This document shows, piece by piece, positions 806 to 38,501 of a DNA stretch of 64,000 bases (positions within the stretch are counted from its first letter, which is position 1; the number at the start of each line of letters is the position of its first letter). A program made the position numbers and the translations under genes. Origin of the DNA: Psococerastis gibbosa. Taxonomy: Eukaryota; Arthropoda; Insecta; Psocodea; Psocidae. The notes under the pieces were generated by a model. That model had not been told where the DNA came from and made no database searches. It saw only the letters and a list, made by a program, of their open reading frames with translations. The DNA is taken from the NCBI GenBank assembly GCA_963971405.1, contig OZ020489.1, positions 13,206,001 through 13,270,000 on the forward strand, given 5' to 3'.

Positions 806-829
806 ATATAATACTGCAATATAATGAGG

Positions 830-2640: not shown

Positions 2641-2679
2641 ATTATTATATTGTCATCATCATTATATTGTCGCTCCTAC

Positions 2680-2878
2680 CTGAAAGAACTGTCATCGCTG
2701 CCAATGCAGCTATGGCGCCGGCGAAAACCGTGAGCCGGGGGTGCCGCATGGCCATGATGGCCGCAATGAAAAACGTTTTGTCACCCAGCTCCGATACTAT
2801 GATGACGGAGAAGGACGCGACGAACGCGTGGAAAAATCCTAAGCTAGTTTCCACGCCAGCAGTCGTGTCGCTCGGGCT
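2680..2878 (-). CDS. TMEM165: TMEM165/Gdt1-family transporter, internal exon with first cation-binding motif
   Basis: Acceptor TTTTCCAG|AGC lies at 2878 and donor TTTCAG|GTAGG at 2680. The encoded 66 residues begin SPSDTTAGVETSLGFFHAF, then VIIVSELGDKTFFIAAIMAM, RHPRLTVFAGAIAALAAMTVLS. The E-L-G-D-K-T motif is the cation-binding signature of the UPF0016/Gdt1 family, and the segment matches human TMEM165 nearly residue for residue (SVIIVSELGDKTFFIAAIMAM). Two membrane helices are visible, one holding the motif. The N-terminal exon with signal/lumenal region should lie at higher coordinates on the minus strand and was not identified; a tandem-repeat array starts about 50 bp upstream. The next exon is 1694-1869, across an 810-bp intron holding a LINE tail. 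Confidence 0.92.
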
Positions 2879-2926
2879 CTGGAAAATAAATGGGAAATTA
2901 AGTCGTGGAACTGTTTAAATCATTAG

Positions 2927-3665: not shown

Positions 3666-3945
3666 GTGTGGGGATTAGCGGCTCGTTGATAACACGGAAA
3701 GTATACATTTTTATATATTATTTTTATGTGTTCATCTACTATCATTATCATTAAGAACGACACAGATGAAGTAATAATACATTTCATCATCATATGACTG
3801 AACCAATCGAGTTTTTACCCACCCCTGGATCACCACAAAATAGGTTGGTTTATATTTTTTATTTAATGTAATACTCAAGTTATAACGATTTGGTCAGTCC
3901 AATTAGCAGAGGAGTACTTTATACATAGTACTATGAGGAGGTTTT

Positions 3946-4771: not shown

Positions 4772-4774
4772 TTT

Positions 4775-5396
4775 TAGTTTTGATGCAGTGGGTTATCCGT
4801 AAAACTAAAAAAAAATCGTACAAAGTGTAGTTTTACGGGTACCGGGTGGTAGCCATAGAACAATACAATACAAATGTTCGAGTCACTGACCAGAGCCAGA
4901 GCCGGATCGACCGTGTCACAATTGCAAAGAATTAATTGCAAGTAAAAACATAAAATATAATAAATTGTAAATAGCCACCCTAGAGGGTTTTGTACGAGAA
5001 AAAAGAAGAGGAGGCACTTAAACAGTCCAGCTCCTGGGGTCGTACTCATCCAATTTATACAGGGACGCGTCACTGTTAGCACGCGGCAACTGCTAGGTTG
5101 GTCTATTAAATGAGAAAGAAACCCGTCAAATTTTCAACTAACTTACAGTAAGCAGTGTAGGATACACACACAAATATGAAACCTTTACGGTTATGGTCCC
5201 GATTATGCCGATTCAGTAAGTTTCTGCCTTTTACGTGTTGAACATTACTGTTGTTGTCGGTACAAAACGATATGTTATAATTATACAAGCGGTTCCCGGC
5301 TGCTTCCATCACTTGCGCCTGCCGCGGGCGGCAGCTCGGCCTTCGGCTTCTGCTCATGTAAATTAATTGTGGTCACACGCAACACACACGCAGCAC
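4775..5396. other. Unique-looking stretch with a GC-rich patch
   Basis: Mostly AT-rich and featureless, but 5290-5355 is clearly GC-rich for this window. On the minus strand the patch starts an open frame (MSRSRRPSCRPRQAQVMEAA) that reaches a consensus donor CTTACT|GTAAGT near 5148. It could be a 5' exon or promoter region; no homology was recognised. Confidence 0.3.
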
Positions 5397-5605
5397 CAAC
5401 TGTCGGGATAAACGAAAATTAATGGTAGCGCACTCTGCCGCTAGATGTCAGTTGATGTCGGTTGGCGGTGGTAGCGCCAACTCTGTCGGGATAAACGAAA
5501 ATTAATGGTAGCGCAGTCTGCCGCTAGATGTCAGTTGATGCTTGTTGGCGCCAACTGTCGGGATAAACGAAAATTAAATGTAGCGCAGTCTCCCGCTAGA
5601 TGTCG
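5397..5605. repeat. Tandem repeat, about 75-82-bp unit, 2.7 copies
   Basis: CCAACT(CT)GTCGGGATAAACGAAAATTAA followed by GTAGCGCAGTCTGCCGCTAGATGTC repeats starting at about 5397, 5478 and 5552. The later units lose part of the TTGATGTCGGTTGGCGG spacer. No coding content. Confidence 0.85.
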
Positions 5606-5879
5606 GCAGTACCAGCAGCCATGTACACGCACCAATGTAAAATATTCCAAAATCAAATTATAAAAACATTCTCCAGTGGATGAAAGTGTTAATCTAAACC
5701 ATCCTCGAATATCCTTGAACACACACAACAATATTAAATAAAATAATAATAATAATATATTTATTTCCCAATTTTTACATCATAATCGGTCCAGTCGTTT
5801 GAGAGGAGGCCCGGAACATACACACGGACAGTCGAAATATATATATATTAAGATAAAATATATCAATCAATAAATAAAC

Positions 5880-6113
5880 AATTGATGAAGCAGTAGAATC
5901 TGGGATGATAGGTCGCGGTCGTTCTGAAAGCGTACGTCCAAACGTCTCGTCAACATCTGCGGTCGACATCTTCAGTGGAACTGCGTAGACTTTTAAGATT
6001 GTATCTTGAAGTTTCAGAAGTATGCTTTCAGAACTACCACGGCCTATCATCACGGATTCTACTTCTACAGCTTTATCGTGTAACTCCGGCCGTGAAAGCC
6101 ACTGTAATTATAT
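5880..6113. mobile_element. Foldback MITE, CACGGCCGGAGTTAC family
   Basis: The two halves are inverted copies: GATGAAGCAGTAGAATC..GGGATGATAGG..CGTTCTGAAAGC on the left, and GCTTTCAGAAC..CCTATCATC..GGATTCTAC ... TAACTCCGGCCGTGAAAGCC ending at TGTAATTATA on the right. Related copies lie at 9265-9422, 10441-10545 and 52640-52985. Confidence 0.7.
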
Positions 6114-7360
6114 CCATAAGAAGAAATTGTCACGATTCAGTGAAACACACTGTAGAGGTTGTACCTATTTAATAACAACAGGATTTGTATGCTATTGTTT
6201 TTTTACGCGAATTACTCAGAATGATATAACCATTCTCAAGATATATTACCTATACTATATTTACCTTCATTTTAGCATTCACGATAGATCACACATTTGT
6301 CTCATGTTTATTCACTCTCCAGTCAAGTTCTTGGGTATAATGTTCACAGCTAACTTTCATAAATCACAGATAAACAATTCAATCATTCTAATCTTTATGG
6401 AAAAAAACTAAGAAGTTCACACAAATATAAACAAACACATTCACGAAAAACATAAACTGATGTCACTTGCAGTGGCACAAGCTTCAGTAATGCATTTGGC
6501 TCACGTTTCACGTGGTCATTACGCAGCGAGTAACTATCATTACTTGACAGTACCACTAATAGCCAGGCATACTGTAACTCAATGGCAAGGTCTCCAAGAG
6601 GCTACGATACAAGTTGAGCGGGTTAAGGTAAAAGATCTATATATAGGAGAGATAGGACATTCGAGCGCGCCAAAAATATTTGTCTAAGAGGGAACATTAA
6701 TTTTTCCCGCGGACATGGTGTACATTTTATAGTGTCTCGTGCTGCCTAAAATGTAATCATGAAAATCAGCAGAGGTTTTATGCCTCCCGGGCATTACATG
6801 ATTAGGGTTAGCATGAAAACAAGACTTTATAGTCTTATTGTTCGCCTTTTGTTTATTTTCAATAAAATAGTTTTTCATTTCATTCATTCTCGCTACAAAT
6901 TTCAAATCGAACGGTATCAAACCCCTCAGGGCAAAACTAGGCGTGTCGCCTCGAAATCACCCCCTCTTTCCAACCATGTGCCATTCATGGCAATCGGGTC
7001 ATTTTGAAAAATTTCTCCATAAGAATGTATGGGTGGCGACGTCAGAGCCTCCGAGCACCTGTAATGCTTCCAATCGGCATTGATCCCGGGATAGCTGGAA
7101 AACTATTCCAAAAACACCCCATAAACCATATATCGTCGTGTCCGGGAAGAAATCCCGCGTCTGGACTTAGAAATTTGGTGTCTCTTGTTGCCTAAAAGCC
7201 TTGTAAATCACGAAAATCAGCAGAGGAGGTCTCATGAGCATTTCCCCTAAAAATTTCCCAATTAATTCATTCACTCAGTCAGCAGTCGCGGCTTTGATGA
7301 CAATACTCTTCGAATTGAGGTAGTTGACAACCGTGGACCGAAAACAACACGTACATACTG
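6114..7360. other. Intergenic, no gene seen
   Basis: AT-rich sequence with short, low-complexity open frames and no recognisable domain. A weak internal repeat (GAAAATCAGCAGAGG at about 6760 and 7215, with nearby tgtctcgtgctgcctaaa / tgtctcttgttgcctaaa) suggests an old duplicated element. Confidence 0.5.
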
Positions 7361-7364
7361 TTCA

Positions 7365-7450
7365 AAACAACTATGTATGTACGACACGTCTCCGATAGCA
7401 TGGCGAATAGACACTCGCACAAGGCACAAGAACGCTACCACCTATCCATC
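7365..7450. mobile_element. SINE family C fragment
   Basis: It contains TACGACACGTCTCCGATAGC, ATGGCGAATAGACACTCGCA and CTACCACCTATCCATCGAAG. These match the fuller copies at 15170-15370 and 44560-44715 (ACGACACGTTTCCGATCGCA, GTTACCACCTGGCCATCG). Confidence 0.6.
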
Positions 7451-7856
7451 GAAGTCTACTAAATAAAATAAATAAATCTATCAATTTCGAAAATATTGCG
7501 ACCAGGCATGTCTTTCCATTGGTCTGAATATAAAGACTATACCGCGCAGGTTTTTGCCCATCGTCACAAGCCCTGAATATTTCATCCGTGTATAATTTGT
7601 CGCCAACGATAAAATTAAATGTATAATTTATATTGTTGAATATTCTTTTAAGCATTTGAAAGCCTAATCTGGGGAAATCCTTTTGCATACAGTATATGGC
7701 CGCCAGAAGGGGACAAGGGGTAGCCATCATTGATATATCGTACATAAAATCAATTTGCCCAATCTTGGACAGGCACCCGTGCTAAGCGCTAATTTTGTCG
7801 TCACTGATATTCTTATGTCAATCGCGACAGATCAATGTTATTATTGATTTTCAACT

Positions 7857-7966
7857 AAGGTGCCCATTCCATTGACCGGCTAGGGCTATTTCCAAAACGG
7901 TGACGTGGTAGCAGACACTCAAGACTTAGGTGGGGTTTCCAACGTCAATGGTCAATGGAATGGGCG
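7857..7966. mobile_element. Foldback MITE, hybrid arms, GACGTGGTAGCAGACA core
   Basis: The left arm GGTGCCCATTCCATTGACC matches a right arm ending GGTCAATGGAATGGGCGCC. Next to the left arm is GGCTAGGGCTA..CGGTGACGTGG, as in the element at 57439. Next to the right arm is GTTTCCAACGTCAATGG, as in the element at 233. It abuts element Q at a shared TTA. Confidence 0.65.
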
Positions 7967-8243
7967 CCTTATACGTAGTATAAGGAAAGCTTTGTGATGG
8001 TCGAAATTTTCGATTCCGAGATTTCAACGGATTTACATGTTTTGAGGTCCCATGAACCAAAAAAAGTGGCTTTCACGAAATGTCTGTCTGTCGCTCCGTA
8101 TGTCTGTCTGTCTGTTCATCGATTTCCGGGCAAACTACTCTGTCGATTTTGATGAAATTTAGCATGTAGGTTTACAAAAATCATACCTCGGGACCACTTC
8201 TTTTTTCTTTGGGTCAACTCAATTTGAGGGGGTTTTATTCTAG

Positions 8244-8274
<31 letters not shown>

Positions 8275-8842
8275 TTCTCTAAAAAAATTATTTCTCCTAA
8301 ACGGCTCCAACGATTTCTTTTAAATTCGCAAATGTTGTAGTCGGTACTAATATTGAAAAAATGCGGGGGGTCGTTTGCCCCTTGATAGTTTGCTTCTGGG
8401 GGTAAAAAATAATAATAACTAAATTTTAATTAAAAATGACTAAAAAATAATTTTTCTGTGAAACCTTTCTATCGATGATTTCTACCTTCAGGCATGTTAT
8501 ATGTGTTAAATTGAGTAACGAAACCGGAGAGGTTGCTTTCCCAAAAAACTATTTGGTTTTGTGCAAAAAATTATCTTTTGAAAAAATGATAGAAAATTCG
8601 CGCTCAAATGCATTGCGTGTCCTGCCATTATTGCTGTGTAGTATGGTAGTATGTGTTGATCTGACCTATCTAGAATTTATCTCACCTCCAGTGACGTCAG
8701 GTGGACAACCCCCCCCCCCCCCCCCCCCGAGATATCGGAAATCTAACCATAGGAAAATTATTTACCATGAAATTACTCATTTTCTCTATCTACTAATATT
8801 GATACATTGGAAAGCATGTTCGAGTAAACTCGGACCGGTTCT
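7967..8842 (+). mobile_element. Element Q copy (+)
   Basis: Same order of landmarks as 3946-4771, with a 29-base poly-A block at about 8243-8271 and an 18-base poly-C run at about 8710-8727 preceding GAGATATCGGAAATC. The start is joined directly to the foldback at 7857-7966. Confidence 0.8.
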
Positions 8843-8882
8843 CATATATATATATTACACGTTATATTGCAGTATTATAAGA

Positions 8883-8935
8883 TCCCGCCAAGCCCAGTTT
8901 TCCTATATCCTCTAATTTCGGGTATAACGAGGTTA
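8883..8935 (+). mobile_element. SINE family T, 3' fragment
   Basis: CCCGCCAAGCCCAGTTTTCC followed by ATATCCTCTAATTTCGGG matches the tRNA 3' end plus SINE body seen at 120-165. The tRNA 5' half is absent. Confidence 0.6.
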
Positions 8936-9264
8936 CTTCTTCAAAGTTAATTTAATGTCAGTGTTATATATACCATATAATACTGCGGCTAATAAGCTAA
9001 TACCAAATGTCATAGTAGGCCCACAGGAGGTGAGAGTGGGTATTTTTAATGGTTTATAAGAGAAAATTAATAAATACAAGTATGTTTTCCAGAAGTCAAG
9101 AATCCGCCGCCAGAAACGTGGGACTATTGATTACCTGAGGCAAGACCAAGTATATGCGCATGGGGAGAGGAAACCTTACTGAGAATAGCCGCTTTGAAAA
9201 GGGAAATAACTTTCGGTATTTTGACCTGAGACAACGCTGATGTTAAAAGTCGAATTAAGTGTGC

Positions 9265-12154: not shown

Positions 12155-12655
12155 ATGCTAAGAAGATCCTGCGGTGTAACGCTGAGCGACCAACGTAGAA
12201 ACCAAAATATAAAGCATGAGATGAGGACCCGTGACGTACAAGAGAAGCTAAGAGAAAAGAGGCTGACCTGCAGCCTGATCGAGGCGATTATAATACCGGT
12301 ATTTATTTAATCCCCTGGTATTAAAAATGTATAAATATAATTTTATAATGGAAAGTGCTATTCAAAATTTGTTTGTTTACAGTTATAATCCTAGGGTATT
12401 TATTTAACCCCGGTATTATAATCACCTCGATCAGGCTGCTGGTACACACGTACTATGTAGAGACGAAACTATCTAGTCAAAAGAGTAATGAACCGAGAAA
12501 TACAAGGGAGAAGATCACCAGGAAGGCCGAAATTTACACTGAGTAGAAAGATCGCCGGAGACATGAGAGGTTTGGGGCTCTCAACAGAGGACGCACACAA
12601 CAGGACTGTGTGGAAACGCTGCTGTCCTGCCGCCAACACTCCATGAGGATAAGTA
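12155..12655 (+). mobile_element. LINE ORF2 C-terminal tail, split by a MITE
   Basis: The first part encodes MLRRSCGVTLSDQRRNQNIK then HEMRTRDVQEKLREKRLT; after the MITE at 12271-12438 it resumes with VKRVMNREIQGRRSPGRPKF and KIAGDMRGLGLSTEDAHNRTVWKRCCPAANTP. This is the usual end of an RTE-like LINE ORF2. Removing the MITE and one copy of its CTG target duplication brings the two halves together. Frameshifts and missing upstream domains show it is a dead 5'-truncated copy. Confidence 0.8.
12271..12438. mobile_element. CAGCCTGATCG foldback MITE with CTG target duplication
   Basis: A 168-bp palindromic element: CAGCCTGATCGAGGCG at the left, its reverse complement at the right, and inner arms with ATTTATTTAATCCCC and ACCGG. 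It is flanked by CTG at 12268-12270 and 12439-12441 and interrupts LINE coding sequence, so the ends are exact. Copies: 20440-20597, 33012-33183, 34656-34813. A 3-bp CWG duplication suggests a CMC (CACTA/Chapaev-like) transposase source; this is inference. Confidence 0.85.
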
Positions 12656-14060: not shown

Positions 14061-14889
14061 AGGTGGGCCGTTCTTGGTTTTCTCGGGAACTTGCGTTCTC
14101 AGTTCAAGTGATTCAAAAGGAACAGCTCTTATTATGCGTTCTTTTAAGAACCGGTTCATGGCTTCCTCTCAATCCCAACCCAACACTGGCAACTGGTTCA
14201 CTGGTAGACGTTGATCGTTCCCTATACAGTTCCTAGAACCTGAGAACTAGTTCGCCAATGGTTAGCGTTCGTGAAAGGGAATTTCTACGTGTTCCCCGTT
14301 CTTTCTTATACTTGAAAGTAGAGTATTTAGTTCACAACAATCGTTATTATTCAGTGGAGTATAAACTTATTTTACGTAAGTTGTTGTTGTTGTTTCTAAC
14401 GCCTGCTTTCAGCATTTCTGCTTTAAGCAACCCTGTCAGCCTGGCGGGGGGAGTGAGTCTGTTTGAGGCACCCTAAGGGCAGACTCTTTCACCTCGGGGA
14501 AAGGGGAGTTGACTAACAGGGTGGACCTCCTGATTATAGTGGATTCCGAACCACTTGGGGAACATGGTAAAGTCACACAATTAAATCGGAGGTGACCAGG
14601 ATTCGACTTATACTGCCTAAGCGCGTTATCATGTCCCACCATGTTCCCCTGCCAACGCTGTGCACACTAACAAGTTGCCGCAGTTTGAAACATGCTCTGC
14701 TCTAATGGAATCAACATGGTAAGGCCGTTGGCGTTGGTAAGTGGCGACCACTTCATATACCGGATATCTCCATTTTGCATTGCGTTCTTAAAGAACCTAA
14801 TATTTTTGTAGTCGGGAACCGGTTCAACCAGTTCATGACTCAAGAACCGTTCTTAAGAACGACTCCAGTAAGAACGACACACCTCATTC
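14061..14889. mobile_element. hAT-like non-autonomous element with 8-bp target duplication
   Basis: Flanked on both sides by GCCTCTAG (14053-14060 and 14890-14897). The left end begins AGGTGGGCCGTTCTTGG and the right end reads AAGAACGACACACCTCATTC, so the termini are roughly inverted (AGGTG.../...CACCT) with a few extra bases on the right. Internal GAACCGGTTC-type repeats recur near both ends. An 8-bp duplication with such termini is typical of hAT elements. It carries no transposase and contains a nested SINE A. Confidence 0.8.
14385..14735 (-). mobile_element. SINE family A, nested in the hAT-like element
   Basis: The minus-strand copy runs from a TTG/CAA tail at about 14383 to the head GCCAACGGCCTTACCATGTT at about 14730. 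It carries GTGGGACATGATAACGCGCT, a B-box-like AAGTCGAATCCTGG and TATAATCAGGAGGTCCACCC. Confidence 0.85.
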
Positions 14890-19995: not shown

Positions 19996-22900
19996 GTAAA
20001 TGTCAATTTTCTTTATTAATTATAATCTGTTAGTTTTGGGACTAGAATCGTCGTTCATTATTTTTACTAAGCCTAAATCATTGAATATATAACACTATAG
20101 AATGGTCACGACGGTCAAATATTGCAAACAGGCTTTTCTGGTGAAAAACCTACAAACTAGAAAAAAGGTCGGACGTCCCGCTGGTGTCAGCCCATTGTGC
20201 AATTCGTCAGGGTCCAACTCGCCACATCTTTACCAGGGACGGACTAAAGACCCTCACTATGCAATACTCTCAATTTCTTCCTGCCCCTTCAATTGGCTGC
20301 CTACTTTAATAATGGCCAGTGGTATATACTGTATATATTTTGTTGCTTTCCAATTTATACGTAGTAAAAGGAAAGCTTTGTGATGGTCGAAATTTTCGAT
20401 TCCGAGATTTCAACGGATTTACACGTTTTCAGGTCCCAGCAGCCTGATCGGGGCGTTTATAAGACCGGTATTTATTTAATCCACTGGTAAAAAAAATAAT
20501 TTTATAATGGAAAGTGCTATTCAAAATTTGTTTGTTTACAGTTATAATCCTAGGGTATTTATTTAACCCCGGCATTATAAACGCCTCGATCAGACTGCAG
20601 GAACCCAAAAAAGTGGTTTTTACGAAATGTCTGTCTGCCTGTGCACCGATTTCCGGGCAAACTAAGCGCGCGGTCGATTTTGATGAAATTTAGCATGTAG
20701 GTTTTTATTTTGGGCCAATTCAATTTGGGGGGAGGGGGGTTTTATTCACAAAAAACTCCCAAAAAACGTCTAAAAAAATTATTTCTCAAAAACGGCTCCA
20801 ACGATTTCTTTTAAATTCTCATATATTGTAGTTGTTGTTAATGCTGACAAATTGCGGTGGGTCGCTTGCCCCTTGATAGTTTGCTTCTGGGGGTAAAAAA
20901 ATAAAAATAACTAAATTTTAATGAGAAATGACTAAAAAATAATTTTTCTGCGAAAACTTTCTATCGATGATTTCTATCTTCAGGCATGTTTAGGTGTTAA
21001 ATTGAGTAACTAAACCGGATAGGTTGCTCTCCCAAAAAAATATTTGATTTTGCACAAAAAATTATCGGAAATTTAACAACTGGAAAATCATTTACCACGA
21101 AATTACTCATATTCCCTATCTACTAATTTTGATAAATTGGAAAGCATGTTCGAGTAAACTAGGACCGGTTCTTTTATTTGACCTAGCATTGTACTTCTGC
21201 TCAGCATAGGCTTTCCAACAATAGCTTATTTTAGAATTGCAGATGATTTAATTAGACTTAATGGATCTACTGTAAAATGCTAAATCTACCTATTATTATT
21301 TTGAAGCCGTATATATGAGAGCTTCTTCAAATTCAAATTGGAATAATGCTAAGGCGGCTATTCCACTGGTCAATTATACTTCAAATTTGATTTTGTCATT
21401 GACGGAAAATCTTCAATGATGCTTTATTTATTTTTACACCACATTCCACTGGTTTTCAACAATTGATCATTTTTGTTATCAATTTTTTCCAAATTTGTAA
21501 GTTTGCCCTCAGTCTTTCTCAAAAAAACTAAAAAAAAAAACGTTTAAAAAAATTATTTCTCAAAAGCGGCTCCAACGATTTCTTTTAAATTCATATATAT
21601 TGAAGTCAATATTAATGTTAATAAAATGCGGGAGGTCGCTTGCCGCAAGATAGTTTGGTTCTGGGGGTAAAAAATATAAAAAAAAAATTAAGGAAAAATG
21701 ACTATAACAAATAATATTCGATGATTTCTACTTTCAGACATGTTTAAGGTGTTAAATTGAGTAACGAAACCGGACAGGTTGCTTTCCCAAAAAAATATTT
21801 ACTTTTGTGCAAAAAATTATTTTTTTAAAGATGATAGAAAAAAACGGTCACGAGGTATGATTTTTGTGGACCTACGTGCTAAATTTCTCTTAAATTAACC
21901 GAGTAGTTTGCCCAGAAATCGATGAACAGACAGAGTGTCAGACAGGCGGACAGAGCGATAGACAGACATTTTGTAAAAACCACTTTTTTGGGTTCCTGGG
22001 ACCTCAAAACGTGTAAATCTGTTGAAATCTCGGAATCGAAAATTTCGACCATGACAAAGCTTTCCTTGTATAGGTACTACGTATAAATTGGAGAGCAATA
22101 AATAAAGACTTTTGTTGTTGTTTCTATGACTAAACCAACCTAGCGGAGTTAGGGCTATAAAGCCCTCTCTTTCACTCAACTAGGAAGGCCCGGGACCGCC
22201 TGCTGCACATGCCCTCCGAAGCATGGCCATCCACTCATTACATCACCTTTCAGTTACCAACAGATTTTTAGCAATTATGAGTTAAACCAAAAAATATATA
22301 TATACAAATATACAACCAAATAATTCTATTGTAAGTAATGACAATTCAAAAAGAACCGGTCCGAGATTACTCGAACATGCTTTCCCATTTATCAACTACT
22401 TAGTAGATAGAGAAAATAAGTAATATCATGGTAAATAATTTTCTTTTGGTTTAATTTCGCATATCTCGGGGGGGGGGGGGGGGGGGGGGGGTTCACCTGA
22501 CGTCACTGGAGGTGAGGTAACCTCAATAAATTTAGAAATCTATAAAACTCCATTCTATCTAGTGTACGCTGTAACCATTTGGGAAGGGGGGGTGGGGGTC
22601 CGGAACCCAAGGACCCCCTCTGGCAATCGCCTAGGATATCACCAATCCCAAAGCACTGAATTAATCGATGGCATTGCATATTCTAGACCGGTCAGACAAC
22701 ACATTACCCCACAGGAATAATGGAATTTTGCCCAAAAAAAAATACTTTTTGGGAAAGCAACCTTTCTGATTTTCTTTACTCTTTTTAACACCTAAAACAT
22801 GCCTGAAGGTAGAAATCATCGATAGAAAGGTTTAGCAGATTTTTTTTTTTAGTCATTTTTCATTAAAATTTAGATATTTTTATTTTTTTACCCCCCGAAG

Positions 22901-25900
22901 CAAACAATCAAGGGGCAAGCGACCCCCCACATTTTATTAACATTAATAAGGGCTGCAATATATGTGAACTGAAAAGAAATCGTTGGAGCCGTTTTTGAGC
23001 AATAATTTTTTTAGACGTTTTTTTTGGAGTTTTTTGATAATAAAACCCCCCCAAATTGAGTTGGCCCAAAATAAAAAAAAATCGTCCCGAGGTGTGACAT
23101 TTATACGTAGTCTAAGGAAATTTTCGATTCCGAGATTTCAACGGATTTACACGTTTTGAGGTCCCAGGAACCCAAAAAAGTGTTTTTTACGAAATGTCTG
23201 TCGCTCTGTCTGTCTGTCTGTTCATCGATTTCCGAGCAAACTATTCGGCCGATTTTGAAGAAATTTTCCATGTAGGTACACACAAATCATACCTCGAGAC
23301 AGTTTTTTTTATTTCGGGCTAACTCAATTTGGGGGGGTTTCATTCTCAAAATACTCTAAAGAAACGTCAAAAAAATGATTTCACCAAAACGGCTCCAATG
23401 ATTTCTTTTAAATTCACACATCTTGTAGTCGTTATTAATGTTAACAAAATGCAGGGGGTCGCTTGCCCCTTGATAGTTTGCTTCTGGGGGTAAAAAAATA
23501 AAAATAACTCAATTTTCATGAAAAATTATTTAAAAATAATTTTTCTGCGAAACCTTTCTATCGATTATTTCTACCTTCAGGCATGTTTTAGGTGTTAAAT
23601 TGATTAACGAAACCGGACAGGTTGCTTTCCCAGAAAACCATTTGGTTTTGAGCAAAAATTTTGTTTTTTGAAAAAATTATTGAAAATTTACGCTTAAATG
23701 CATTGCGTGTCCTGCCATTATTGCTGTGTGGTATTGTGTTGGTCTGACCTATCTAGAATATAACTCATCTCCAGTGACATCAGGTGCTACAACCCCCCCC
23801 CCCCCCAAATATCGGAAATGTAACTATTTATTAAAATTATTTACCATGAAATTATTCATTTTCTCTGTCTGCTAATTTTGATTAATTGGAGAGCATGTTC
23901 GAATAAACTCGGACCGGTTCTTAGAGATGTAAAGAAAAAAACACACACAGTAATGCAGTAATGCACGTATTGGACTTATAATTATCTTGAAACATTTAAG
24001 TATAGGAAATTATTTATTTAATCTTCTTTCTTTTTCTTCGCTTTATCCCGGTTTGGGGTCAGCGACACGACAGGCGATTTTCCAGGCTTTTCTATCTTGA
24101 GCTGTTGCGGCTGAGATCCCACACGCTCCCATGTCAGCTCGAATCTTCCACTCTACTGTGATCTTTGGGCGACCAACATTTCTTCTGCCCTCCACTTGAA
24201 CCCGCCGCACTCTCTGTATAAGTTCTTCGGGGTTTCGTCTCTCAACATGGCCCCACCAAGCCAGCCGACGCTCACGTATTTTGTCAACGATACTATATTT
24301 AATATAAAAAGTATATTTGACTTCCAATCAAAAAGTCTAGTTCTAGAATAAATAAAGAATATAGTTAAATATAACGAGGCCCGTGAACTGCTCAGTGCTT
24401 TCTAAATGAGTAAATGCTGTACCTGGCCCTGTTCTGAAACAGGGATAAGGAAGGGTACAATGTGACTTGCAACCCCTAGCTGGACCCAGGTATGAAGCTC
24501 CGCGGGTGGTGCTTGCGTTGAGCAACAGTTCGCTGCCAAGTATCATCTTAGTTCGCGTTTCTATAGAATGGAATCGTAAATGCAGGGGCCTTTCTATAGT
24601 GTTATATATTCAATGGCCTAAATATTAAAACAGAGTCAATCCATCTTCAGATTCCCTCAGTCATTTCCTTCAGTCTGTTTATTGACATAATTGCACAATT
24701 TGAACTTATTTGTGCGATATTATTGATATCCCAGTTTACCAGGCAATGAAATTTGCTGGACACTAAATAAGTACCTACCTATACCCTTATTGACTTCGAA
24801 TGAATCATATTGCCAGCTGACCTCCTTAAATTGATAAGGAAAAACAACCAGATACTGATACAGATACACTAAACGCAAGGGAAATATACACTTGAAATAT
24901 AGAATGGCAGTTCAGAGTGCAAAATCGATATTACACGTAGGCGTGACAAAGTATTGTTCAATAAAATGGAAAGAGACAGTTGTAGTGAAAACGGTTTTTG
25001 CAAGAAGCTGAAAGAAAAATGCATGTGTTGCTATGAACAGTGGCGTCATTTCAGTTTTAGCTGGAGGGGGGGGGGGCAAGGCAAACTTTTTTTTACGACG
25101 CACCTTAAGCAAGAAATGAAGAAAACTAATTTCCAATGCCCCTTTACATGGCTTAATCCTTAGTATATGGTAAATTCCCGTCATTTAATAACCAGAGTCA
25201 AATTTATCGACCATTAGAAATACAGTGACAATAGAATCCGCGCACTTAGCTCGCAGTTGAAATTGCTACATTTTGACTATAATTAGCCGTGCCATTCCCT
25301 CTTAAGGCGAGAACTTCCAAGCTTAATCTCAGTCATAACTTTTTGCTCCTTCATTGTTTACGCTGCGAATGCCCATCTTTACTGCCTAGACAAATACTGA
25401 TAAAGACCATGACATGACCATTGATATGAATGTAGTCTGAACTGGGTTTCGTGTAAGCGACGAAAACCCATATTAATTGGGTGTGATTCAGTGAAATGAA
25501 GGAGTGATAATTGTAAGAGGACTACATATACATGTTTATGAACGGCCAAATTTTAAGGCTCTATAGTCCACTTCTCTAAGAACGTAAATTTATTTAATAT
25601 TCTCGTGTGCTTACTTACCTTAAGTTCATTCCAATGATATAAAGATATTAGTAAATGTTGTCCCAAGTTATGCTCTTTAAGGCCCAATCGCGTGATGGTT
25701 CAAGTAGAAAACCATTTTCAAGAGGTCTATAAACAACTATCTGCAGCATAGGTTTGAAAGCTTCTGGAGACTGGTAACGAAGCAGCCCCTCCCCCCTCCA
25801 ATGCACCCATTGTTAAACCCTCGGGACGCTCATCTATTGGCTATGAGTTGTCCCTGCATAAAAAGGACAGTTCCACTTGTAGCAGACCACAAACTATTTA

Positions 25901-28900
25901 AAGAGCACATGTGAAAAATAGGAGCCCTGCAGCCATTGGAGGGCACACTATGTCGCCGGTGAATCGGTATTAGTTTTCGCCTTCTAGTACTTATGATATT
26001 TTAATAGGTTTATTTACAGTGAAATCCGACTTTACACAAAAAGCAAGTGGCGTTGGTGCCCTGGGGGAGGGGTCCATTGATGTCAATAATTTAATGCTAT
26101 TTTAGGTATTCGTTGGGGAATTACCGCCGGAATTTTTGCGAGTCAATGCAGGAGGAGTTCCAACCGAACAGGAGAGGCAGGAGTCGGCAGATCGACAAGC
26201 TGCCATTTCTCTACAGCACGAAATTGCAAGAACTCCATACTCTCCGGGTCCTGTGGGAACGCTGAAACTAACCATACTTCAAGCCAAACTGGTGAAAAAC
26301 TATGGGTTGGTTCGAATGGATCCTTACGTTCGTATACGTGTTGGTCACGGGATTTACGAGACCAATTCAGATGCCAATGGTGGAAGATACCCAAAATGGA
26401 ACAGAGACATTCTTTGGTAAGTTTATAAAGTGTAAATTTGTTGCTCCAACGACCTGCAGCCCTATCATGGCGATTTCGGATTAAGATAACACCGGGGTAT
26501 ATTTTTTAATACGGCATTAGTAAGGTGTCATGTGATGATGTTAAATTAATAAATTATTGGAATTTAAGAAAATGGCTGTATTGTTTTATATTTGAAGGAA
26601 ATACTAATAAATATTAAAATGTACAGGTAGAATTTTGAAATATAATAAGAATTTTAATTAATGTGTTTACATCTAAGGGAGAAAAAATTGAAAGCTCACC
26701 AAAAATATAGGCGACGATTAATTTATCAATTTGAATTTCCCGCGCATTTTGCATTAATTTCTTTAGAACTATATTGAATAAACCCCAGTGTTACGTTAAT
26801 CCCAAATGAAGCTGCTGCTGAAGGGCTTTCATGAACCTAGGCCTACTCATAGTGTTAAAAAATTTTTTGGAACTGATATTACTTACAAGAAACCAGAGGT
26901 TGGCGCACTCAAACTTAGTAAATAAAACACAAAAAGGGCAAGACGGGCGTTATCTGAAAATGAAGAAGAAGTGTCTTGTTTGTTGATGTTGTAGTAGGGA
27001 AAATATATATAAATCAATGTAGAGCGTAATTATTTTCCTTTAGAAGTTTTTCTTATTTTTTATTACATGCATAGCCTAGCATAGAGGGTCGGCGCTAGTG
27101 CAAAATGTGTTCTGCATTATGATGTAATTTACAAGGGAAGAAGAAACCACTGCACGTGAAGCTGGTTCTGAGCTTGCCTGAAATCTCACTATACCTGATC
27201 GGCCAGAGCCGAAAGGGATTTTTTGATATTAATAATTTTTCATGCAAAAAAACATATTATTGTTAACCTATAAGCGATCTTATCTGGCATATTTAATTTG
27301 TACAACTATCAAGTAGTCTATTATTAGCCTACTATTTGTTCTTATTTATTCAGCTTGGTTCCGCAAGGAGTTACAAATATTGCCCTCGAAGTTTTCGACG
27401 AGTGTTCGTTTTCTCTGGATGAGCTCATTGCGTTCACGAACATTCCCATTCCGCGCTCTATTATGAGGGGTGAAACCATTGAACAGTGGTACCCATTATC
27501 GGGGAGGCAGGGTGAAGGCCTGGAAGGCTCTATCAACATCGTCTTGAGCTTCACTCAGGTATGTTCATTTTATTATCACAACAAAACTGTCGCTACAAAG
27601 ACAGGCCAAGTGCCTAGGACTAACGCACTATAACAGACACCCAAGAGTCGTACAAACAATTCATCAATATCTAATACATTAAAAAACACATCTCAATGAA
27701 TTAACACCGACAAACGTAGACTAGACAATAACGTTTGTAAAAACACACACTACTTATGAATTACTTACTTAATGTTAGGTTAGGCCTTTTTTCCGATTGT
27801 ATGCTGCACACGGGCTGAGCCCTGCAGCATATTATCATTGTAAGGCGGCAATTCCATAGACCTCGTTTTGCATAATGCCGGTGACATTGACGTGGTAGCA
27901 GACATTAAAGACTTATTAATGATGTCTGCTACCACGTCAATGTCACTTGCATTATGCAAAACGAGGTCGATGGAATTGGCGCTTTATTGATAGAATTTTG
28001 ATGAAAATAATAAAGTTATTGTATTGTACCTAGTGCCTTAGGCGCATAGTCCACCGACCTAGTTTTTGATAGTGAGCATGACATTGACGTGGCAAAAGAC
28101 ATTTTTTAGACTGTCTTTAATGTCTGCTACCACGTCATGTCATGCTCACTATCAAAAACGAGGTCGGTGGACTTTGCGCCATAGTTCCCGAAGTGTTTCG
28201 GAACCCAATATAATCAGTAGATCCACACTGTCAGTCAAGTTCCCTTCTCCCTGAGGGGAAGGAGTCAACTCTTAGGGTGCCTCAAGTTATTAAACAGACT
28301 CACTCCCCCTGTCAAGCTGACAGGGTTGCTTAAATTAGACGCTGGATCACAAACAACAAAACTATGCTAATTTGTACAAATACATGCGACGGAGCGCTGC
28401 CCGTAGTTTGTTTAACAGATTTGCATTTTTTGTTGCAGATGGGTCAATCGGGCTACTTTCCTGCTGTCGGCGGCACTCCTCTTTTGTCTTTCCCCCAGCA
28501 CGGTGGCATTACTGGGTTCCGACAGGTACTGCCGTTTGGCCCGTCCCCCGTCGCCCCGATATCCGTGGCTCCTCCACAGCCATCCGCAGAGGATGTGAAG
28601 CTGGTAATTGCCATACTTTATTATTACTTTATTTAAACATATAGTTGCAATGGTTTGTACACTGAAATGGAATGGATAGCAGCAGTTGCGCAGGGAAGAT
28701 ACAGAAACCGGATTAAAGGACCTATCTCAGATGAGTTGGGCTTGCCAGGGGAAGTCTTCAACGTGATGAAGCAAAAAATCTGGGATGATATCGTACTTCC
28801 ATTTAGGGTTTATAGACGCCGCCAGTGGTCATGAATAAAGGTGTATGTTTTGTTTTCAGATTGAAGACATGTTCCCTAATATCGAGAAAGATGTCATAAA

Positions 28901-28970
28901 GTCCGTGTACGAAGTTAACAGGTTCCAAAAGAACCAAACCGTTTATTCACTTCTTCAAATGGCTGAATAA
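19939..28970 (+). CDS. TOLLIP: TOLLIP (Toll-interacting protein), five coding exons
   Basis: Coding exons are 19939-19995, 26106-26416, 27354-27558, 28439-28603 and 28860-28970, all with GT-AG borders and matching phases, for 282 residues (human 274). Residues 1-69 form the N-terminal Tom1-binding-type region; exon 2 opens VFVGELPPEFLRVN, equivalent to human VYIGELPQDFLRIT. Residues about 70-191 form a C2 domain (GTLKLTILQAKLVKNYG, RMDPYVRIRVGHGIYET, WYPLSGRQGEGLEGSINIVL). Exon 4 is a Gly/Pro-rich linker (about 192-246). Exon 5 is a CUE ubiquitin-binding domain (IEDMFPNIEKDVIKSVYEVN ... SLLQMAE). The family couples ubiquitinated cargo and Tom1 to endosomes and dampens Toll/IL-1 signalling through IRAK. 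The frame is intact, so the gene looks functional. Intron 1 (6.1 kb) carries a 4.5-kb transposon and intron 3 three short insertions. A polyadenylation signal candidate lies at 29528. Confidence 0.95.
20347..21173 (+). mobile_element. Element Q copy within the transposon, internally deleted
   Basis: Begins GCTTTCCAATTTATACGTAG and ends AGGACCGGTTC. The MITE at 20440-20597 lies in its left part. Compared with the equivalent in copy 2, it lacks about 160 bp between TTTTGCACAAAAAATTAT and ATCGGAAATTTAAC, including the poly-C tract. Confidence 0.8.
20440..20597. mobile_element. CAGCCTGATCG MITE nested in element Q
   Basis: Starts CAGCCTGATCGGGGCG, ends inverted, and is flanked by CAG at 20437-20439 and 20598-20600. 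The uninterrupted target GGTCCCAGGAACCC is present in other Q copies (for example at 23160), which proves the insertion. Confidence 0.9.
21502..22087. repeat. Partial element Q array present only in transposon copy 1
   Basis: A + fragment of Q (from CTCAAAAAAACTAAAAAA to about 21840) is joined to a minus fragment (GGTCACGAGGTATGATTTTT ... ACGTATAAATTGG). In copy 2 the flanking words AATTTGTAAG and TTGGAGAGCAATAAAT are directly adjacent at 35880, so this 586-bp block was lost there or gained here. Confidence 0.75.
22107..22240 (-). mobile_element. SINE family B copy
   Basis: AACCAACCTAGCGGAGTTAG, GGCTATAAAGCCCTCTC and GGCCCGGGACCGCCTGCTGC match the minus-strand form of the tRNA-derived SINE seen at 58405-58560. 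The tRNA head is cut off. The same truncated copy sits at 35896-36045 in transposon copy 2. Confidence 0.75.
22352..23921. repeat. Head-to-head pair of element Q copies (1.57-kb inverted arrangement)
   Basis: A minus copy (GAACCGGTCCGAG at 22352 to GTCCCGAGGTGTGACAT at 23099) abuts a plus copy (TTTATACGTAGTCTAAGG at 23100 to CTCGGACCGGTTC at 23921). The outer ends both read GAACCGGTCCGAG, so the pair itself has long inverted termini. The halves are diverged, so this is not a recent palindrome or assembly fold. The same pair is at 36143-37799. Confidence 0.85.
24043..24300 (-). mobile_element. LINE ORF2 C-terminal tail in transposon copy 1
   Basis: Encodes VDKIRERRLAWWGHVERRNP then RRNVGRPKITVEWKIRADMG and AQDRKAWKIACRVADPKPG with a stop. 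The RRLxWxGHVxR and GRP motifs are those of RTE/Jockey-like ORF2 ends. It is flanked by TATTTAAT on both sides (about 24010 and 24295), a plausible target duplication. Confidence 0.75.
24624..26105 (+). other. Remainder of TOLLIP intron 1
   Basis: AT-rich intronic sequence with no recognised repeat or gene, ending in the acceptor GCTATTTTAG at 26105. A 10-base G run lies at about 25067-25076. Confidence 0.6.
26417..27353 (+). other. TOLLIP intron 2
   Basis: From donor TTTG|GTAAGT to acceptor ATTTATTCAG. A ~75-bp segment at 26731-26806 (TTTGAATTTCCCGCGCATTT ... GTGTTACGTTAATCCCAAAT) recurs at 57221-57298, marking an otherwise unnamed dispersed repeat. Confidence 0.7.
27843..27988. mobile_element. 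Foldback MITE in TOLLIP intron 3 (CTCGTTTTGCATAATG arms)
   Basis: A palindrome with outer TAAGGCGGCAATTCCATAG / CGATGGAATTGGCGCTTTA, arms ACCTCGTTTTGCATAATG and a core GACATTGACGTGGTAGCAG repeated inverted. It shares the core with the GGCGGGG family but has different arms. Confidence 0.8.
28040..28182. mobile_element. Foldback MITE in TOLLIP intron 3 (TTTTTGATAGTGAGC arms)
   Basis: Outer GGCGCATAGTCCACCGACC / GGTCGGTGGACTTTGCGCC, arms TTTTTGATAGTGAGCATGAC and the same core GACGTGGTAGCAGACATTAA. It lies 50 bp from the previous foldback and 3 bp from a SINE A fragment. Confidence 0.8.
28185..28360 (+). mobile_element. SINE family A, 3' half
   Basis: From CCGAAGTGTTTCGGAACCCA through GTCAAGTTCCCTTCTCCCTG and CTGACAGGGTTGCTTAAATT to a CAAACAACAAAAC tail. 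It lacks the tRNA-like head. Confidence 0.75.
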
Positions 28971-33011: not shown

Positions 33012-33183
33012 CAGCCTGCAGATCATGGCGATTATAATACCGGTCTTTATTTAATCCCCTGGTATTTAAAATGTAAACAAACAAATTTTGAATAGCACTT
33101 TCCATTATAAAATTATCTTGTTTTCATTTTTAATACCAGCGGATTAAATAAATACCGGTATTATAATCGCCATGATCAGGCTG
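33012..33183. mobile_element. CAGCCTGATCG MITE copy
   Basis: CAGCCTG..GATCATGGCGATTATAATACCGG on the left, inverted on the right (CCGGTATTATAATCGCCATG, ATCAGGCTG). The arm base differs from the other copies (CATGG for CGAGG) symmetrically on both sides. Confidence 0.85.
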
Positions 33184-34287
33184 CTGTTCGTGCTGGGTAG
33201 TAAATAAAGTAACATAATGTAATAAAGTATCAGTAGTTGTCGGATCGGGCCTCTGTGTTAGTCAACTATATGCAATTTAATTTAAATGGATGTGGAACGT
33301 AGATATTGATCACCCGTGGATTAATTGGTTGCCAATTTTATTTAATTTACTACATAAGTTACCTAACCTACAGTATAGGTAACTATAAATATAAAAGCCT
33401 ATACCTATTGTAATTTCAAACTAAGCAAAACGTCAAGCTCATTATCAGCTTGCTCTCAAACTACACCACCTTTTTGACAAGTCAAAATGTATTCTACCTC
33501 ATACTTAGCTTGAAATTCCAATAATCATAATTTACAATAGGTAACAGTTAGGTTTCCCATTATGCATAACCTTATTTTTGCAGGAGTTTGCTCTAAAGTT
33601 CCCACCATTTAACCACCCCTCATGTCAGACTCATAGAAATTTTGATTCCATTTAACCCTTAACTTAACGAGTCAAAAAGAGAACTTTCTTTTTCGCGTTT
33701 TTATGCATCACCCCAGTACCTTCCTATTGGTGGGTGGCTCCACCCATGATAGGTGCCCCTTCTTTCCCCATTGACAAGGGGAACCCATTAATTTTCCCCG
33801 TGTTTACGTGATTACTATAGTTTTAGCCTAAGGCTGTGTGTACTTTTGAAACTGACAGTATAACGTTATCACTAGCTGCACTGCCGTATGGCCGTTATCA
33901 AACACAGAAAATGTCTTTACAACAGGACGCTTTCCTGTGGTATGTGCCAATTAGTGGTTTTCGTTATCTATCGGGGGCCCCTTCGCCCGGAAATGGCGCC
34001 TCAACTTAATATATAGGGTACATACTGTATTATACGAGACCCGATTGTCTATGCTTTTGTACAGCCTACTGATGTTATTTTAATGGGTACAAGAAAAACT
34101 GCATACTGTGCAATGCTATTAATTAAAAAAGTACTTTAAAAATAGGTTGATATAAACGAAATATACCCACATATGTATATATCGTTATATACTTCGGAAG
34201 AAAAATGACACAACTCTAAATCTATTAATTTACAGAAATATTAATGTTAAAGTTTTTTTTTATAATGAATGAGGTTCTGTAGGGACA
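33184..34287. other. Intergenic, no gene seen
   Basis: AT-rich with no supported coding sequence or recognised repeat. Confidence 0.5.
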
Positions 34288-34564
34288 GTTTTGGCATTGA
34301 ATATATAACACTATAGAATGGTCACGACGGTCAAATATTGCAAACAGGCTTTTCTGGTGAAAAACCTACAAACTAGAAAAAAGGTCGGACGTCCCGCTGG
34401 TGTCAGCCCATTGTGCAATTCGTCAGGGTCCAACTCGCCGCATCTTTCCCAGGGACGGACTAAATACCCTCACTATGCAATACTCTCAATTTCTTCCTGC
34501 CCCTTCAATTGGCTGCCTACTTTAATAATGGCCAGTGGTATATACTGTATATATTTTATTGCTT

Positions 34565-35552
34565 TCCAATTTATACGTAGTAAAAGGAAAGCTTTGTGAT
34601 GGTCGAAATTTTCGATTCCGAGATTTCAACGGATTTACACGTTTTCAGGTCCCAGCAGCCTGATCGGGGCGTTTATAAGACCGGTATTTATTTAATCCAC
34701 TGGTAAAAAAAATAATTTTATAATGGAAAGTGCTATTCAAAATTTGTTTGTTTACAGTTATAATACTAGGGTATTTATTTAACCCCGGCATTATAAACGC
34801 CTCGATCAGACTGCAGGAACCCAAAAAAGTGGTTTTTACGAAATGTCTGTCTGTCTGTCTGTCTGCCTGTGCACCGATTTCCGGGCAAACTAAGCGGTCG
34901 ATTTTGATGAAATTTAGCATGTAGGTTTTTATTTTGGGCCAATTCAATTTGGGGGGAGGGGGGTTTTATTCACAAAAAACTCCCAAAAAACGTCTAAAAA
35001 AATTATTTCTCAAAAACGGCTCCAACGATTTTTTTTAAATTCTCATATATTGTAGTTGTTGTTAATGCTGACAAATTGCGGTGGGTCGCTTGCCCCTTGA
35101 TAGTTTGCTTCTGGGGGTAAAAAAATAAAAATAACTAAATTTTAATGAGAAATGACTAAAAAATAATTTTTCTGCGAAACCTTTCTATCGATGATTTCTA
35201 CCTTCAGGCATGTTTAGGTGTTAAATTGAGTAACTAAACCGGATAGGTTGCTCTCCCAAAAAATATTTGATTTTGCACAAAAAATTATTTTTTGAAAAAA
35301 TGATAGAAAATTCGCGCTGAAATGCCTTGCGTGTCCTGCCATTATTGCTGTGGGGTAATTAATGTGTTGGTCTGACCTATCTAGAATTTATCTCACTTGC
35401 AGTGACGACAGGTGGACAACCCCCCCCCCCCCCCCCCGGGGATATCGGAAATTTAACAACTGGAAAATCATTTACCACGAAATTACTCATATTCCCTATC
35501 TACTAATTTTGATAAATTGGAAAGCATGTTCGAGTAAACTCGGACCGGTTCT
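34565..35552 (+). mobile_element. Element Q copy in transposon copy 2
   Basis: Complete Q with the nested MITE at 34656-34813, a TGTCTGTCTG tract extended relative to copy 1, and the poly-C tract at about 35420-35437. Confidence 0.85.
34656..34813. mobile_element. CAGCCTGATCG MITE nested in element Q (transposon copy 2)
   Basis: Same position and CAG target duplication (34653-34655, 34814-34816) as in copy 1, so it is the same insertion event, inherited. Confidence 0.9.
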
Positions 35553-35895
35553 TTTATTTGACCTAGCATTGTACTTCTGCTCAGCATAGGCTTTCCAACA
35601 ATAGCTTATTTTAGAATTGCAGATGATTTAATTAGACTTAATGGATCTACTGTAAAATACTAAATCTACCTATTATTATTTTGAAGCCGTATATATGAGA
35701 GCTTCTTCAAATTCAAATTGGAATAATGCTAAGGCGGCTATTCCACTGGTCAATTATACTTCAAATTTGATTTTGTCATTGACGGAAAATCTTCAATGAT
35801 GCTTTATTTATTTTTACACCACATTCCACTGGTTTTCAACAATTGATCATTTTTTTTATCAATTTTTTCAAATTTGTAAGTTGGAGAGCAATAAA

Positions 35896-36045
35896 TAAAG
35901 ACTTTTGTTGTTGTTTCTATGACTAAACCAACCTAGCGGAGTTAGGGCTATAAAGCCCTCTCTTACACTCAACTAGGAAGGCCCGGGACCGCCTGCTTCA
36001 CATGCCCTCCGAAGCATGGCCATCCACTCATTACATCACCTTTCA
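35896..36045 (-). mobile_element. SINE family B copy (transposon copy 2)
   Basis: Same truncated SINE B as 22107-22240, with the same breakpoint after CCGAAGCATGGCC. Confidence 0.75.
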
Positions 36046-36142
36046 GTTACCAACAGATTTTTAGCAATTATGAGTTAAACCAAAAAATATATATATACAA
36101 ATATACAACCAAATAATTCTATTGTAAGTAATGACAATTCAA

Positions 36143-37799
36143 AAAGAACCGGTCCGAGATTACTCGAACATGCTTTCCCATTTATCAACTACTTAGTAGA
36201 TAGAGAAAATAAGTAATATCATGGTAAATAATTTTCTTTTGGTTTAATTTCGCATATCTCGGGGGGGGGGGGGGGGGGGGGGGGTTCACCTGACGTCACT
36301 GGAGGTGAGGTAACCTCAATAAATTTAGAAATCTATAAAACTCCATTCTATCTAGTGTACGCTGTAACCATTTGGGAAGGGGGGGGGGGTCCGGAACCCA
36401 AGGACCCCCTCTGGCAATCGCCTAGGATATCACCAATCCCAAAGCACTGAATTAATCGATGGCATTGCATATTCTAGACCGGTCAGACAACACATTACCC
36501 ACAGGAATAATGGAATTTTGCCCAAAAAAAAAAATACTTTTTGGGAAAGCAACCTTTCTGATTTTCTTTACTCTTTTTAACACCTAAAACATGCCTGAAG
36601 GTAGAAATCATCGATAGAAAGGTTTAGCAGATTTTTTTTTAGTCATTTTTCATTAAAATTTGGATATTTTTATTTTTTTACCCCCCGAAGCAAACAATCA
36701 AGGGGCAAGCGACCCCCCACATTTTATTAACATTAATAAGGGCTGCAATATATGTGAACTGAAAAGAAATCGTTGGAGCCGTTTTTGAGCAATAATTTTT
36801 TTAGACGTTTTTTTGGAGTTTTTTGAGAATAAAACTCCCCCAAATTGAGTTGGCCCAAAATAAAAAAAAATCGTCCCGAGGTGTGATATTTATACGTAGT
36901 CTAAGGAAAGCTTTGTGATGGTTGAAATTTTCGATTCCGAGATTTCAACGGATTTACACGTTTTGAGGTCCCAGGAACCCAAAAAAGTGGTTTTTACGAA
37001 ATGTCTGTCGCTCTGTCTGTCTGTCTGTCTGTTCATCGATTTCCGGGCAAACTATTCGGCCGATTTTGAAGAAATTTTCCATGTAGGTTCACACAGATCA
37101 TACCTCGAGACAGTTTTTCTTATTTCGGGCTAACTCAATTTGGGGGGTTTCATTCTCAAAATACTCTAAAGAAACGTCAAAAAAATGATTTCACCAAAAC
37201 GGCTCCAACGATTTCTTTTAAATTCACACATCTTGTAGTCGTTATTAATGTTAACAAAATGAAGGGGGTCGCTTGCCCCTTGATAGTTTGCTTCTGGGGG
37301 TAAAAAAATAAAAAATAACTCAATTTTAATGAAAAATTATTTTTAAATAATTATTAATTAATTAAATATAATAAATATAATAAATAAAATTAATTAATAA
37401 TAAATTATTTTTAAATAATTTTTCTGCGAAACCTTTCTATCGATTATTTCTACCTTCAGGCATGTTTTAGGTGTTAAATTGATTAACGAAACCGGACAGG
37501 TTGCTTTCCCAGAAAACCATTTGGTTTTGAGCAAAAATTTTGTTTTTTGAAAAAATTATTGAAAATTTACGCTTAAATGCATTGCGTGTCCTGCCATTAT
37601 TGCTGTGTGGTATTGTGTTGGTCTGACCTATCTAGAATATAACTCATCTCCAGTGACATCAGGTGCTACAACCCCCCCCCCCCCCCAAATATCGGAAATG
37701 TAACTATATGAAAATTATTTACCATGAAATTATTCATTTTCCTTATCTGCTAATTTTGATTAATTGGAGAGCATGTTCGAATAAACTCGGACCGGTTCT
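36143..37799. repeat. Head-to-head element Q pair (transposon copy 2)
   Basis: Minus copy 36143-36889 and plus copy 36890-37799, as at 22352-23921. The plus half has an extra AT-rich expansion (TTAATTAATTAAATATAATA) at about 37345-37400 not present in copy 1. Confidence 0.85.
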
Positions 37800-37861
37800 T
37801 AGAGATGTCAAGAAAAAAACACACACAGTAATGCACGTATTGGACTTATAATTATCTTATT

Positions 37862-38165
37862 ATACAAATCAGCGGATGTGCTATCCGAACTCCGAGCTCG
37901 AAGACTCCAATGGCTTGGCCATGTAGCGAGGATGGAACGTTCCAGAGCACCTCTAAGAGTACTAGACGCTTTGCCTGACGGTCAGAGAGGAAGAGGAAGA
38001 CCACGAAGAAGATGGTTCGACCAGGCCATGGTCGACCTAGATAAGGCGGGCATTGATCGTCAGAGCTGGAGAGAGACGGCGCATGACCGAAAGAGATGGC
38101 GAGCTTGTGTGTACGCGGCGAAAGGTCCCCCCGGACCCACCCAGCCACCATAAGTCAAGTTAAGT
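37862..38165 (+). mobile_element. LINE ORF2 C-terminal tail in transposon copy 2
   Basis: A clean frame encodes LSELRARRLQWLGHVARMER, then RGRGRPRRRWFDQAMVDLDK, SWRETAHDRKRWRACVYAAK and a stop, followed by an AAGTC/AAGTT simple tail. It is the best preserved LINE tail in the window, so probably young. The element is 5'-truncated to about 300 bp. Confidence 0.85.
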
Positions 38166-38501
38166 CAAATTATTTATTTAATATAAAAAGTATATTTGAC
38201 TTCCAATCAAAAAGTCTAGTTCTAGAATAAATAAAGAATATAGTTAAATATAACGAGGCCCGTGAACTGCTCAGTGCTTTCTAAATGAGTAAATGCTGTA
38301 CCTGGCCCTGTTCTGAAACAGGGATAATGAAGGGTACAATGTGACTTGCAACCCCTAGCTGGACCCAGGTATGAAGCTCCGCGGGTGGTGCTTGCGTTGA
38401 GCAACAGTTCGCTGCCAAGTATCATCTTAGTTCGCGTTTCTATAGAATGGAATCGTAAATGCAGGGGCCTTTCTATAGTGTTATATATTCAATGGTTTTG
38501 G

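Follow-up and report, generated by a model that had tools for sequence, protein, structure and literature searches.

A large non-autonomous P-superfamily element in a window with TOLLIP exons of Psococerastis gibbosa

A 64,000-nucleotide stretch of the Psococerastis gibbosa genome (the window, part of contig C14 in a 409-Mb genome) holds, at 20079-24615, a 4,537-bp element with inverted ends and a heavy load of other repeats, which raises the question of what kind of transposon this is and what might move it. The initial annotation, made from the letters alone, had described it as a composite transposon with exact 24-bp ends and an 8-bp target duplication in intron 1 of TOLLIP, and had not recognised its family. 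By following these ends through the genome, the family can now be placed in the P superfamily, because a P transposase sits between the same ends in other copies, and we conclude with high confidence that the window element is a non-autonomous member of this family of DNA transposons.

Ends, copies and target sites

The first and the last 24 bases of the element are identical as inverted repeats (24/24 bases, CATTGAATATATAACACTATAGAA), and the same 8 bases, GCCTAAAT, stand on both sides, exactly as had been annotated. The features that delimit this element, together with a further copy of the family in the window, are as follows.

20071..20078, unstranded: target duplication, left copy, 8 bp, GCCTAAAT
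20079..20102, plus strand: terminal inverted repeat (TIR), left, 24 bp, CATTGAATATATAACACTATAGAA
24592..24615, minus strand: terminal inverted repeat, right, 24 bp
24616..24623, unstranded: target duplication, right copy, 8 bp, GCCTAAAT
34295..38494, plus strand: second copy of the family in the window, full, 4,200 bp

The second copy is flanked by the 7-bp sequence GTTTTGG at 34288-34294 and 38495-38501. Both of its ends are among 7 places in the window that match the 17-base core of the terminus when up to 3 mismatches are allowed; 0.50 are expected from shuffles, and none of 100 shuffles reached 7.

The initial annotation had asked whether the termini recur beyond these two copies. At up to 2 mismatches, the 24-base terminus is found genome-wide 154 times in forward and 163 times in reverse orientation (reversed pattern control, 1 and 0), and longer end patterns locate 112 left and 109 right ends (reversed controls, 0 matches). 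The termini thus recur at about 110 places, and the copies that were read carry fitting target duplications that differ from copy to copy. Among the matches listed (100 of 317, all exact), 80 make up 40 inward-facing pairs with ends 1.5-11.7 kb apart; a pair on C2 with 24 kb between its ends (11997174-12021135) was excluded as too long. Our sample of 44 copies consists of 39 of these pairs read whole, the fortieth read by its ends, the two window copies, and two elements, L049 and L050, that entered via their transposase, and it is selected toward good ends. In this sample, the target duplication is exactly 7 bp long in 40/44 copies and exactly 8 bp long in a single one, the window copy. The 8-bp duplication initially reported therefore holds for that copy, whereas 7 bp is the rule of the family. 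When left flanks were paired with the right flanks of other copies as a control, none of 1,806 pairings gave a 7-base match.

Empty target sites were sought by comparing the joined flanks of 43 copies with the sequence fetched for this analysis. A match across the junction was obtained for 4 of them (L017, L040, L044, and L046); it is clear for L040 and L046 and mixed for L044, where small gaps at the junction accompany some of the matches. The insertion site of L040 is in a repeat whose relatives are 82-89% alike and lack the insertion (e.g., window 50696-50917), and that of L046 is in a repeat resembling a short interspersed nuclear element (SINE) with many uninterrupted relatives. In both cases, the empty relatives hold a single copy of the target bases, either exact or slightly different. 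Furthermore, the target tends to be palindromic: over 39 sites, a mean of 2.31 of 6 pairs are complementary, compared to 1.58 in the flanks, and none of 5,000 sets of random centres reached the observed value. A palindromic target tendency has been reported for P elements.

The mean divergence of the ends from their consensus is 1.4% on the left (40 ends) and 1.3% on the right (43 ends), with values of 1.2% (left) and 2.4% (right) for the window copy and of 4.3% and 3.2% for L050, and in view of this low divergence the spread of the family looks fairly recent. The majority of copies are similar in size, with 26 of 41 (39 pairs and the two window copies) measuring 3.7-4.7 kb.

As a separate observation, three family copies stand head to tail at C19:6213742-6225473 (L051-L054), with the 7 bases ACTATAC identical at all four boundaries, as if the element had reinserted into the same target duplication or had been multiplied by exchange. 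The literature searched yielded nothing useful on tandem P insertions.

Transposase-bearing relatives and alternative explanations

A search for relatives with a transposase between the same ends, as the initial annotation had proposed, was successful in two cases. L050 (C19 30633456-30642569; 9,114 bp), referred to below as the parent, has both 24-base ends, a CTTCTGC duplication, and a P transposase gene in between, and L015+L016 (C2 49121977-49133668; 11,692 bp) has the same two ends, an ACTTCGG duplication, and likewise a P transposase gene. The inverted ends are 29 bp long in the parent, compared to the perfect 24 bp of the window copy, and the parent's transposase gene is on the strand opposite to the left-to-right reading of the element. 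On the minus strand of L015+L016, a 531-residue frame matches PF21787 (P-type RNase H, 4.9e-35) as well as PF21788 (GTP-binding insertion), PF21789 (C-terminal RNase H part), and PF12017 (P helix-turn-helix); the first three are also matched by L049, and L050 holds a homologous gene. A nested piggyBac transposase (PF13843) is present in L015+L016 and absent from L050.

A protein search of the genome gave 108 candidates, 81 of which were scored; it revealed 4 close copies with at least 96% identity (on C2, C19, C15, and C21) as well as a broken relative at 68-82% identity on C3. The copy on C15, L049, has a 679-residue open frame with the upstream part in another frame, and beyond base 17 its left end region is lost; on C21, the left end of the copy has lost its outermost 41 bases. 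Compared with the structure of the Drosophila P transposase (6p5a; E 1.6e-37), the 679-residue frame pairs Asp, Asp, and Glu with D230, D303, and E531. By counting along 6p5a, these are the aspartates in FDEM and VSDLG and the glutamate in DIVEHFF, and PMC7776569 names them as the catalytic triad of the P transposase. In addition, a THAP zinc finger (PF05485) would be split over two exons and joined by splicing: the two L050 pieces, about 1.9 kb apart, score 19.9 and 22.5 bits singly, below the cut-off of 23.9, and 39.4 bits when joined. Short terminal inverted repeats, a duplication of 7-8 bp, THAP, D/D/E, and an RNase H domain with a GTP-binding insertion are all found in a family that had initially not been recognised and that its transposase assigns to the P superfamily.

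The genome also contains many other P-like transposase matches from several families, mostly at 22-40% identity; some have open frames of 600-1,165 residues, with identical scores at several loci.

The two window copies lie within 14 kb of each other and are 97-99.7% identical across long stretches, as could be expected if a segmental duplication had given rise to both and the flanking 8 bases matched by chance. However, the 112 left and 109 right ends are dispersed with differing target duplications, and related repeats without the element exist; because the dispersed copies carry duplications of their own, we consider a segmental duplication refuted and give it practically no credence. A second possibility concerns the superfamily itself. 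hAT transposons have 8-bp target duplications, and the duplication of the window copy would fit hAT, or another superfamily with 8-bp duplications, equally well; the P transposase gene would then be a nested passenger in long copies, which do hold nested transposons such as the piggyBac of L015+L016. Against this stand the 7-bp rule and the presence of the P transposase between the ends of two elements with full ends and of one with a shortened left end. Furthermore, a scan of L050 for any inverted pair of 14-mers (2 mismatches allowed) that encloses the gene and is flanked by a 7- or 8-bp duplication found none, as in five shuffles, and the family's own 17-base terminus was not found inside L015+L016 and L049 at up to 2 mismatches, where it has single matches at 3-4 mismatches, all on one strand. 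By eye, stop-to-stop frames of at least 120 residues in the 39 paired loci and the 2 window copies gave no other candidate, the P, piggyBac, and some of the LINE and gypsy frames being those put to Pfam (LINE, long interspersed nuclear element). Nor did the copies read include an intact element that has these ends and a different transposase. An origin from hAT or another such superfamily is therefore very improbable.

Several points nevertheless weigh against an assignment to the P superfamily. Duplications of 8 bp are made by the P elements known from Drosophila, zebrafish, and Anopheles (PMC7776569, PMC1562414). Exact flanks of 7 or 8 bases are lacking in 3/44 copies: L021, L027 (6/7 equal), and L031 (one base extra or changed). 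The palindromy of the target is uneven, with 13, 17, 6, 15, 14, and 25 complementary pairs out of 39 at the successive offsets, one of which (6/39) is below chance. A complete, unbroken transposase gene together with both full ends was not found among the four close copies, and the transposase frame is in pieces in L015+L016 and L050. Finally, it is still formally conceivable that the transposase gene was brought into the parent by an older nested element, the decayed ends of which could escape the scan. The source of the transposase can also be viewed differently, in that another P-like family of the genome, and not the family's own parent, might move the large derivative. The many P-like matches, several of them with long open frames, would allow for this, as would the small number of own parents (4 copies at 96% identity or more), none of which is shown to be intact, but the end regions of the derivative are 93-97% identical to those of its own parent, and we consider a foreign P-like source unlikely.

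For a non-autonomous P-superfamily element, the reading that we prefer, the P-element literature suggests how movement may occur. P copies of the family would supply a transposase that acts in trans, binding the derivatives at their ends, moving them by a cut-and-paste mechanism, and cutting the target with a stagger of 7 bp and occasionally of 8 bp. By analogy, the window copy may have been mobilised in trans.

Make-up of the window copy, its cargo and its surroundings

Alignment of the window copy to L050 and L015+L016 revealed that the order of sequence at either end is that of the parent, of which the copy keeps about 1.4 kb on the left and 0.3 kb on the right. Between and within these parts lie other repeats, including one resembling a miniature inverted-repeat transposable element (MITE).

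20079..20341, plus strand: parent left end (parent 1-263, 95-97%), without recognised coding sequence
20342..21168, plus strand: inserted copy of a repeat of about 830 bp
20436..20598, unstranded: MITE-like repeat inside the ~830-bp repeat; similar at 12267-12439 and 33021-33186
21169..22352, plus strand: parent left internal region (parent 262-1437, 93%), older repeat copies included
22118..22229, unstranded: SINE-like repeat (a name from the initial annotation) that the parent already carries; further occurrences at 43484, 58469, and 63591
22348..23922, unstranded: two copies of the ~830-bp repeat in opposite orientation, replacing parent 1438-8788 with the transposase gene
23918..24004, plus strand: parent right part (parent 8789-8867, 84-85%)
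24005..24295, minus strand: LINE-like tail, an insertion within the right part; read by eye
24363..24615, plus strand: parent right end (parent 8862-9114, 95-96%)

In L050, the transposase frames and the two THAP exons occupy positions from about 3.65 to 8.68 kb, and the parent segments that are kept fall outside this range; therefore, none of the recognised transposase gene is left in the window copy. The initial annotation had proposed that the right-end region from about 24310 on and a 93-residue frame at 20102-20383 might be the only remains of the parent. The first guess came near the mark, with the parent right end located at 24363-24615, but 21169-22352 and 23918-24004 are of parental sequence as well. 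The 93-residue frame is a leftover of the parent in part only: it consists mostly of the parent left end and then runs into the inserted ~830-bp repeat, and it does not look like a protein remnant. As a candidate for the latter it was rejected, as it has no Pfam match at E 0.1. Of 40 copies, 5 deviate from the consensus by an indel and 4 of the others contain a stop, and 28 of 145 changes are synonymous (0.19, compared to 0.26 expected under random change); there is no sign of coding constraint.

An interruption at parent position 263 is found in 35/43 family copies, and in the window copy it is the ~830-bp repeat. The parent itself already has part of this repeat, as well as the SINE-like one. 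The ~830-bp repeat (TTGCTTTCCAATTTATACG ... GGACCGGTTC) also stands alone in the window at 3944-4774, 7969-8842, and 55273-55844, the third occurrence being shorter and inverted. The LINE-like tail has a 77-residue reading (24043-24276) without a Pfam match, and the second window copy carries a different LINE-like tail at the same place of its right part. The initial description of the element as a large non-autonomous transposon that has exact ends and is loaded with repeats was correct.

Loads are also seen elsewhere in the family. L012 and L013 have a common LINE-like element, with a frame of 1,020 residues in the one and 1,019 in the other, at an identical internal position, and their target duplications differ (CCCCGAC vs CTATAGA); this suggests movement of the composite together with its cargo. 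Whether length indicates autonomy was also considered, and the idea was rejected: of the 7 paired elements longer than 8 kb in the sample, only L015+L016 contains a P transposase, and in L009 and L010 (Pfam-scanned) and in L012 and L013 (LINE-like, by eye), the extra length holds nested retroelement frames, the other two elements being L011 and L014. L010 contains, at about 642-4208 of the element (minus strand), a gypsy-type retrovirus-like insert with an integrase (PF00665) and a Gypsy protein (PF07253). A broader view, in which the family is a separate P-superfamily lineage with recent activity, 7-bp duplications, short ends, and a 9.1-kb parent, and its non-autonomous form serves as a carrier of mobile elements in large composites, is put forward tentatively and is, in our judgement, rather doubtful.

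With respect to the surroundings, three TOLLIP exons were located by tblastn with a human TOLLIP query.

26106-26411, 27358-27555, and 28860-28967, plus strand: TOLLIP exons

All three are downstream of the window element; the first exon was not located, and intron 1 is a plausible position for the element. Genome-wide searches with the Pfam domains C2 and CUE gave no TOLLIP match inside the window.

Elsewhere in the window, near matches to the P terminus, with 1 and 2 mismatches in 17, are found at 50540-50556 and 50918-50934 (minus strand). They are like-oriented, about 360 bases apart, and border another repeat, which has an inverted occurrence at 14465-14736.

Comparison with known P-type systems

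The P-MITEs of Anopheles gambiae measure 205-2,450 bp and have 8-bp duplications, and the P relatives in the same genome, most of which have three exons, measure 4,178-7,545 bp and end in TIRs of 27-31 bp (PMC1562414). The family described here is like the P-MITEs in its many copies, in which a non-P interior is enclosed by sequence from an autonomous P element, namely its inverted ends together with its 5' and 3' end regions; both end regions are in common with the transposase-bearing element, and the transposase sequence is gone. It is unlike them in the size of its copies (1.5-9.7 kb), its 7-bp duplications, its 9.1-kb parent, and an interior that consists of recognisable nested repeats. 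Galileo has 7-bp duplications as a rule, with three 8-bp copies in D. willistoni and the target consensus GTATTAC, and its non-autonomous copies are abundant, with transposing copies carrying fragments of transposable elements (TEs) (PMC4168063). The 7-bp duplications with a rare 8 bp, the non-autonomous copies, and the TE cargo are shared with Galileo, whereas the long foldback-like inverted repeats of the latter contrast with ends of 24-29 bp here, which have a TIR sequence of their own. The P element of Drosophila melanogaster is 2.9 kb long, with a 31-bp TIR and 8-bp duplications (PMC7776569), and its terminus is printed as CATGATGAAATAACATAAGG (PMC9682801). Transposase domains, catalytic residues, internally deleted copies, a TIR that begins with CAT, and the shared TIR bases ATAACA are in common with it, in contrast to the 9.1-kb parent and the 7-bp duplications in 40/44 copies.

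By its mix of features, we regard the element as representing a new family of the P superfamily, none of the features of which is known to be new to the superfamily. The initial annotation had called such a large composite unusual, and among non-autonomous P derivatives it is indeed rather large, but in kind it belongs to an ordinary non-autonomous P family. In the literature searched, which did not cover Repbase, the 17-base terminus does not occur in either orientation, and no paper was recognised as describing the family.

A young, fairly numerous, and previously unrecognised repeat family is thus named and tied to a likely source of transposase, which allows its roughly 100 copies, including the two near TOLLIP, to be annotated. 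The P superfamily gains a family with 7-bp target duplications, and the composites described here suggest that loads of 4-10 kb, with a LINE-like element among them, can be carried by P-type ends.

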